The notes under the pieces: model-generated
The model's input: the letters and a program-made list of their open reading frames with translations, nothing else
Databases searched by the model: none
Told to the model about the DNA's origin: nothing
Program-made: the position numbers and the translations under genes
Source of the DNA: Acidimicrobiales bacterium
GTDB lineage: Bacteria; Actinomycetota; Acidimicrobiia; Acidimicrobiales; VFJN01
Assembly: GCA_030681555.1 (NCBI GenBank)
Contig: JAUXRW010000142.1
Location: 1 to 51,774, forward strand
DNA length: 51,774 nucleotides
Reading direction: 5' to 3'
Part shown: piece after piece, positions 24,796 through 26,312 of the stretch
Layout: each line of letters opens with the position of its first letter
How positions within the stretch are numbered: position 1 is the stretch's first letter

Positions 24796-25587
24796 CTACC
24801 GGCGCGGCGCGCGCAGTCCGGCGACCGTTCGTCCAGGGTCGCCCGACGTGACCACCGATTCGCCGACGAGGATCGCGTGGAACCCGGCTGCCGCAAGGGC
24901 AGCGGCATCGTCGGGCCCGCGGATCCCCGACTCGGCGACGCGGAGCACACCATCGGGCATAGCCTCGCCGACCCTCACTGCTCGAGCGTTGTCGACCTCG
25001 AACGTCATGAGGTCCCTCTGGTTCACCCCGATGGTGGTGGCGCCCACGTCGATCGCACGGGCCAGCTCGGCCTCGTCGTGCACCTCCACCAGCACGTCGA
25101 GGCCGAGGTGGGTCGCCAGCCGGTGCAGGTCGGCCAGCTCGTCGTCATCGAGGGCGGCGACGATGAGCAGCACAGCGTCGGCGCCCATGAGCCGAGCGTC
25201 GCACACGTCCTTGGGCGAGACGGTGAAGTCCTTGCGCAACACCGGGACCGCCACGGCCGCTCGGGCCACCTGCAGATCGGCCACCGAGCCGCCGAAGCTC
25301 TCCTCGTCGGTGAGCACCGAGAGGCAGGCCGCTCCGCCCGCTGCGTAGGCGCCGGCGACCGCGGCCGGATCGAGATCAGGGGCCAGCGCTCCCTTCGAAG
25401 GCGAGCGCCGCTTCACCTCGGCGATGACGGCGAGCCGATCGACCGAGGCGGCCCGGAGGGCGGCCCTGAAGCCGCGGACGGGGTCGGAGGTGCAGCGGGC
25501 CTGCTCGAGGAGGCCGTCGAACGGGCGGTCGTCGGCACGTGCCGCGGCCCGGTGCGCCTCCAGGATCCGGTCCAGGTAGGTGGCCAT
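24796..25587 (-). CDS. trpC: indole-3-glycerol phosphate synthase
   Basis: TrpC closes the indole ring. The 263 residues carry the family signature VIAEVKRRSPSKG, KDF in VLRKDFTVSP, and E/N/S sites in GVNQRDL and VAESGIRG. The ATG at 25585-25587 is immediately preceded by a CTAG and a 157-bp palindromic insertion, with no good Shine-Dalgarno in the insertion end. Before insertion, the ATG would have directly followed the upstream gene's TAG. Its translation may therefore now depend on the inserted sequence. Confidence 0.96.
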   Translation of the reverse strand: MATYLDRILEAHRAAARADDRPFDGLLEQARCTSDPVRGFRAALRAASVDRLAVIAEVKRRSPSKGALAPDLDPAAVAGAYAAGGAACLSVLTDEESFGGSVADLQVARAAVAVPVLRKDFTVSPKDVCDARLMGADAVLLIVAALDDDELADLHRLATHLGLDVLVEVHDEAELARAIDVGATTIGVNQRDLMTFEVDNARAVRVGEAMPDGVLRVAESGIRGPDDAAALAAAGFHAILVGESVVTSGDPGRTVAGLRAPRR

Positions 25588-25752
25588 CTAGTGTCCCGGC
25601 AGGTTGGTCCGTTGATGAAATGGGCGAGTCAGATCCGGTCCTGGCAGGGACGCAGGCCGACGGACTCCCCCAGCGAATGCGAGGCCGAGGACGCAGCCAG
25701 GGACGGATCTGGCCGATCTATTTCGCAGCGAGTCAGCCTGCCGGGACACTAG
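25588..25752. mobile_element. MITE-like palindromic insertion with CTAG target duplication
   Basis: The core at 25592-25748 (157 bp) has perfect 12-bp terminal inverted repeats TGTCCCGGCAGG / CCTGCCGGGACA, each flanked by CTAG (25588-25591 and 25749-25752), read as a 4-bp target duplication. Internal arms also match imperfectly, for example AGATCCGGTCCTGGC against AGATCCGTCCCTGGC on the other arm. Both strands stay open across it, a by-product of the palindrome, but no transposase motif appears. Deleting the core plus one CTAG restores GGGGCTAG-ATG, an adjacent stop/start pair between the DnaJ-like gene and trpC. It is too short to be autonomous. The parent IS is not in the window. Confidence 0.75.
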
Positions 25753-26312
25753 CCCCGCCCGTCGTCCCGCCGGCGGCTGGCGCTGCGCGACACCAGCAGC
25801 GCGACGAACGGAGCCGAGAGGAAGAGCAGCGTGGAGAGCACGAAGGTCATGAGCGCGACTGCGAAGACGGCGGCGGAGCCTACGAGGACGGCGAGGAAGA
25901 GGAGGCCCACCGACGCGCAGAAAAGGGCGACCGGGATGAGGGCCAACCAGCCCGGTAGCGAGATGTTGACGGGCACGCGCGGAACGCCGTGCTCGCCGAC
26001 GCCGAAGTCGTGGTCCTCGTACTCCGAGGGGTCGAGGTCGTCGAAGGGGTCGTAGTTCGGGTCGGGCACCGGGGACCGGCGCGGCGGGGCGAGGGCCGGT
26101 CCCCCCGAGCGGGCCTCGTCGTACTGCTGCCGCCGCCCCGGATCGCCCAGGACGGCCCAGGCCTCGTTCACGGCCCGCATGCGATCCGCGTTGCCCCCGA
26201 CCCGGTCCGGATGGTGCTGTCGGGCCTGCTCCACGTAGGCGCGCCGCAGCTCGGCGGCGTCGGCGTCGGGCGCGACTCCGAGCACCTCGTAGTGCGTGTG
26301 GGCGCCGCTCAT
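25749..26312 (-). CDS. membrane-anchored DnaJ-domain protein
   Basis: The 187-residue protein has an N-terminal J domain (about 6-70) with the HPD motif at H34-P35-D36 in RQHHPDRVGG. An acidic linker follows, then two hydrophobic segments near the C-terminus (LALIPVALFCASVGLLFLAVL; AVFAVALMTFVLSTLLFL). It would recruit DnaK to the membrane face. Its ATG overlaps the lipoprotein stop (ATGA). Its TAG stop lies inside the CTAG next to the inserted element. No Gly/Phe or zinc-finger region exists, so it is a type III J protein. Confidence 0.88.
   Translation of the reverse strand: MSGAHTHYEVLGVAPDADAAELRRAYVEQARQHHPDRVGGNADRMRAVNEAWAVLGDPGRRQQYDEARSGGPALAPPRRSPVPDPNYDPFDDLDPSEYEDHDFGVGEHGVPRVPVNISLPGWLALIPVALFCASVGLLFLAVLVGSAAVFAVALMTFVLSTLLFLSAPFVALLVSRSASRRRDDGRG

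Follow-up and report, generated by a model that had tools for sequence, protein, structure and literature searches.

Introduction

One of the closest described systems to the element reported here is RUP of Streptococcus pneumoniae, which is treated together with IS630-Spn1 (Oggioni and Claverys 1999, cited from the secondary description in PMC2229807). In that description RUP (107 bp) is short and non-coding, has IS630-like ends in the same host group, targets TA and is proposed to be mobilised in trans; the element that we found next to trpC in an Acidimicrobiales genome is likewise short and non-coding with IS630-like ends, and probably shares the TA target and the trans-mobilisation. Unlike RUP as described there, our element is GC-rich and nearly fully palindromic, has different ends and a different body, shows a strong CTAG preference and stop-codon placement, and belongs to an actinobacterial order.

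IS630 of Shigella sonnei and ISY100 of Synechocystis are a second comparison. ISY100, of the IS630 family, inserts almost exclusively at TA, which becomes duplicated (PMC2170065), and the preference of an IS630-associated composite transposon for the TA in 5′-CTAG-3′ was reported by Tenzen and Ohtsubo 1991, as that work appears in the reference list of PMC2170065. The probable TA duplication and IS630's CTAG preference recur in our element, and the single DDE transposase of IS630 and ISY100 is like that of an intact 1.24-kb element described below, but both of those elements (PMC2170065) are autonomous and ours is geneless. The Correia/NEMIS elements of Neisseria (PMC2229807) are likewise short inverted-repeat elements with TA at their ends and a target duplication, although their sequence is unrelated and their partner and IHF-site features were not seen here. 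We found no published description of our element in the literature searched; the analysis provides this MITE with a host group, a probable family of partner transposases and a plain rule for where it lands.

Results and Discussion

Anatomy of the element

The window (the whole 51.8-kb stretch of DNA analysed) reads CTAG, 157 bp, CTAG at positions 25588–25752, where the perfect 12-bp terminal inverted repeats and CTAG flanks claimed by the first-pass annotation can be seen directly. The features of the junction are as follows.

24796–25587, minus strand: trpC, 263 aa, intact; its ATG (25587–25585) abuts the left CTAG
25588–25591, no strand: left CTAG, abutting the trpC ATG; target TA 25589–25590
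25591–25749, no strand: probable extent of the MITE by the IS630 convention (TA duplication; TA rule from PMC2170065), 159 bp
25592–25748: 157-bp core, taking CTAG as the duplicated unit
25592–25603, plus strand: left terminal inverted repeat, TGTCCCGGCAGG
25604–25736, no strand: body without coding sequence and imperfect inner arms, their pairing retained in 17 copies of three subfamilies
25737–25748, minus strand: right terminal inverted repeat, exact reverse complement of TGTCCCGGCAGG
25749–25752, no strand: right CTAG, source of the DnaJ-like gene's TAG stop; target TA 25750–25751
25749–26312, minus strand: gene for a DnaJ-like membrane protein of 187 aa; its TAG stop (25751–25749) lies within the right CTAG

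The ends of the element are TGTCCCGGCAGGTTGG, and the perfect repeats measure 12 bp, or 16 bp when CTAG is included. The exact 12-mer TGTCCCGGCAGG occurs at just two sites in the window, both of them element ends, and with two mismatches allowed its frequency in the window is no higher than chance. Folded as single-stranded DNA, the 165 nt reach −49.5 kcal/mol as opposed to −29.5 ± 2.9 for shuffles (z −6.96), and 0 of 200 shuffles equalled this value. There is no gene within the 157–159 bp element. Nothing relevant in Rfam matches it, the plasmid collection returned only chance fragments (18–24%), and the end consensus had no match in viral contigs. A terminator-like match inside the element lies on the plus strand, which is not the operon strand, and was set aside.

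Other copies and their distribution

Two further copies, 94–95% identical and with unrelated flanks, are present in the window's genome (G000; 3.28 Mb, 162 contigs) at C158:24275-24437 and C68:14844-15002. Going by gene names taken from translations, one lies after map (methionine aminopeptidase) and before infA, and the other between convergent glycosyltransferase and nucleotidyltransferase genes. Two lesser matches in the same genome were discarded: a lone 12-mer at C55, within a WhiB-like coding sequence and ascribed to chance, and a weak 32-bp match at C45 that resembles coding sequence. The remaining six genomes of the window's family have no copy. Most genomes compared are drafts, probably MAGs, and among the 397 genomes of the order a 97% identical copy, together with an 86% subfamily, was found in G051 (JACDCH01, MAG Acidimicrobiia bacterium MGR_bin303, contig JACDCH010000199.1), which belongs to another family of the same order. 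A further subfamily is present in G203 and a fourth, with differing internal sequence, in G171. An end-pattern search of the order gave matches in 22 genomes; about 20 complete copies were read from G000, G051, G203 and G171, and related elements also occur at secA/prfB and other sites. Judged by these sequences, the element is mobile and repeated and represents a new family of IS630-type MITEs among Acidimicrobiia-like actinobacteria, and the repeat copies with CTAG-type flanks at unrelated places bear out the MITE assignment of the first-pass annotation.

The near-identical copies in two families suggest transfer between lineages, since the G051 copy is nearer to the window's than are the other copies of G000 itself; mis-binning would be a less likely source of this copy. 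Copy numbers are underestimates because assembly apparently broke at IS630-type repeats: in G051, G099, G140 and G171 many ends lie ~105–130 bases from contig ends (e.g., G051:C635:1-165).

Among the subfamilies represented by copies of G203 and G051 (L086, L136, L125 and others), the two ends vary together on a shared body. Nearly the same body is bounded in G203 by either GGAAGG...CCTTCC or GTCAGG...CCTGAC, and the ends of a related G051 body, CTAGTGGTCCCGCTCG, are very unlike these. A ZMP/ZTP riboswitch (RF01750; L086:2346-2443, on C107 of G203) lies ~1.5 kb from one MITE copy.

Conservation of pairing

Across 17 copies from three subfamilies, 97.2% of the consensus-structure cells pair versus 28–46% in slid controls, and 13 pairs have changed on both sides, three of them in the terminal repeats. 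Cells with a two-sided change outnumbered those of all shuffles, while the pair count (26/500) and the pair-type count (78/500) leave the excess unclear; because these two counts are not clearly above the shuffles, the two-sided change mostly reflects a few subfamily-level events. Matching changes at both termini would be expected if the ends track a transposase, and the inner two-sided changes would fit a palindrome that is being corrected or selected; we claim no RNA function for them. We regard it as a doubtful but conceivable extension that this MITE group keeps its body and re-fits both ends to different IS630 transposases, following whichever is present; a possible route would be correction of either end on a hairpin template that its partner end supplies.

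A small palindromic extragenic repeat close to gene ends also recalls REP/BIME-like sequences, or another short palindrome spread by a different route such as a Y1-type RAYT transposase. However, the element has two-ended inverted repeats similar to those of IS630, is flanked on either side by CTAG/TA and, at 157–167 bp, includes a body. Such two-ended, TA-flanked features do not define REPs, and we consider a REP-type origin scarcely credible.

Empty junctions in relatives

Empty sites, which the first-pass annotation had proposed looking for in related genomes, were found at the homologous junction in three genomes of the same genus (G001, G002 and G003), where the same DnaJ-like gene lies upstream of trpC and ends in TAG, with trpC following 13 nt on and no insert between them. 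In G004, G005 and G006 the element is absent and other sequence stands before trpC. TrpC of the window's genome is 71–72% identical to that of its congeners, and the empty site is thus not letter-for-letter the same, but the empty junctions indicate that the window's lineage gained the element by insertion and did not inherit it as an ancestral leader. A leader or structured RNA with a conserved regulatory role in the trp operon could have accounted for a strong hairpin immediately before trpC and for pairing that is preserved across subfamilies with two-sided changes. Against such a leader stand the three congeners that have the same junction without the element, the near-identical or related elements at map/infA, the glycosyltransferase gene, secA/prfB and other places, and the lack of a relevant Rfam match for a trp-leader reading. 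An ancestral trp leader is refuted by the congeners' empty junctions, and a non-mobile leader or structured RNA of that operon is very improbable.

The first-pass annotation had also called the insertion recent. Its intact ends and flanks agree with this, as does the copy from a different family that matches it at 97% identity, but the age is only loosely bounded because the congeners differ by 28% in TrpC. The element is short, carries no transposase gene, has terminal inverted repeats, is dispersed in copies with a target duplication and has empty sites in relatives, as expected of a MITE, and we are confident that it is a non-autonomous MITE of IS630/Tc1-mariner type.

Target duplication and candidate partner transposase

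Flanks of the complete copies are mostly CTAG on both sides, the others being one- or two-base variants, with nearly all copies differing from CTAG by no more than one base at either end, and in the window's genome they are degraded at C158 (CCAG/CGAG) and C68 (CTCG/CTAG). The CTAG on each side of the window copy, which the first-pass annotation read as a CTAG duplication, is compatible with duplication of TA or of CTAG alike. Two related copies (L129; C241 of G171) carry TTAG as left flank and CTAG as right flank, which is only a lean to TA duplication, as a single mutation could give the same. Since IS630 has been published as preferring TA within CTAG, the duplication is probably the TA inside a CTAG target, making the element 159 bp; the CTAG on both sides stands as it was described, and its status as the duplicated unit is what we would revise.

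Several elements of the order point to a partner of the same family. An intact IS630 element of 1.24 kb in G128 (C89) has CTAG flanks and ends (CTAGTGTCCCGGAAG) similar to those of the window element, with identical 28-bp inverted ends starting CTAGTGTCCCGGAAGCTTGATCCGCTG, and encodes a 367-aa transposase that scores 259.7 bits against the NCBIfam IS630 model NF033545 (cut-off 100) and also matches DDE_3. This transposase has relatives in 50 of the 397 genomes of the order, where many complete IS630 elements have CTAGTG-type ends on both sides. In G051, which has many of these MITEs, a partial, contig-broken IS630 lies at C430 with the end CTAGTGTCCTGGAAGGTTGTTCCG. An IS630 remnant is also present on C97 (19.2–20.95 kb) of the window's own genome; its end reads CTAGTGTCCTGTCAGGTTG, and its C-terminal piece matches the G128 transposase at 76% identity. 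The C97 element (G000:C97:19190-20954; L085) is split by an IS256-type (Transposase_mut) gene, and much of its transposase gene is gone. The ends of the G128 C89, G051 C430 and C97 elements are all similar to those of the window element and none is identical. The first-pass annotation had suggested searching for an IS with the same termini, and the outcome is IS630 elements with similar ends in the order but, among the 162 contigs of the window's own MAG, no intact transposase element with identical ends, so the partner is assigned by family resemblance alone. Assembly often loses IS copies where contigs break. The mobilising enzyme is most likely an IS630 (Tc1/mariner-like) transposase.

IS701 or IS5 types use YTAG-like targets, and a transposase of such another family (IS701-like or IS5-like) could have moved the MITE while duplicating the 4 bp CTAG. 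The four-base CTAG is perfect on both sides of the window copy, and the window's genome does have a PF13546 fragment at C91, PF13546 (DDE_5) being a domain that we take to be associated with the IS701 family. That fragment, however, is a remnant with no recognisable terminal inverted repeats of the element's type, the transposases encoded by full-length elements with similar ends are of the IS630 family, and the two TTAG/CTAG copies are what TA duplication predicts. An IS701 partner was rejected for want of matching ends at C91, and a four-base duplication by another transposase family is unlikely. The C91 fragment (G000:C91:12482-12760; L031) lies between uroporphyrinogen-synthase/regulator-like and sugar-kinase-like genes.

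With an IS630 partner, we infer that the transposase of a full-length element would bind the MITE ends and excise the MITE in trans, and that the excised MITE would be pasted at the TA of a CTAG with duplication of that TA, the landing site here being the junction of the DnaJ-like gene with trpC, inside the trp operon.

CTAG scarcity and placement at stop codons

CTAG occurs 19 times in the 72% GC window, compared with 131 expected from base composition or 45–48 from Markov models. Of 18 independent CTAG sites in the same 51.8 kb, to which these statistics apply, 11–12 (~60%) coincide with the TAG stop codon of a likely gene, as judged from open length and third-position GC. The flanking CTAG likewise serves as the stop of a recognisable gene in about eight or nine of 21 complete copies, including genes for DnaJ-like, map, thioredoxin-like, secA, sensor kinase and LuxR-type regulator products. 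CTAG, scarce in these high-GC genomes, may survive mainly where a gene ends (...C-TAG), which would lead to frequent landing at stops. The stop-codon placement of the copies thus follows from a target that is scarce and mostly made up of gene stops, and an extra preference is unnecessary. CTAG is regenerated at both ends, so the insertion leaves the upstream protein unaltered. GC-rich, CTAG-avoiding genomes would in this way steer a CTAG-seeking transposon to stop codons, a nearly harmless site within operons, and such landings are a clean natural experiment on the way in which small elements alter gene spacing and translation coupling in operons.

Effect on trpC

Joining the flanks at a single CTAG gives GGGGCTAGATG, and with the insert there are 161 extra bases between the stop of the DnaJ-like gene and the trpC ATG. 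In the predicted stem, the bases at −16 to −4 relative to the trpC ATG are mostly paired, and the empty junction is predicted to be likewise highly paired (mean unpaired 0.19 versus 0.25). The predicted local pairing change at the trpC start is therefore small, which makes the lost stop-start coupling a stronger argument than the hairpin pairing. Since the 161 extra bases and the hairpin part the trpC ATG from the upstream stop, we infer that trpC translation may be reduced or uncoupled by the insert.
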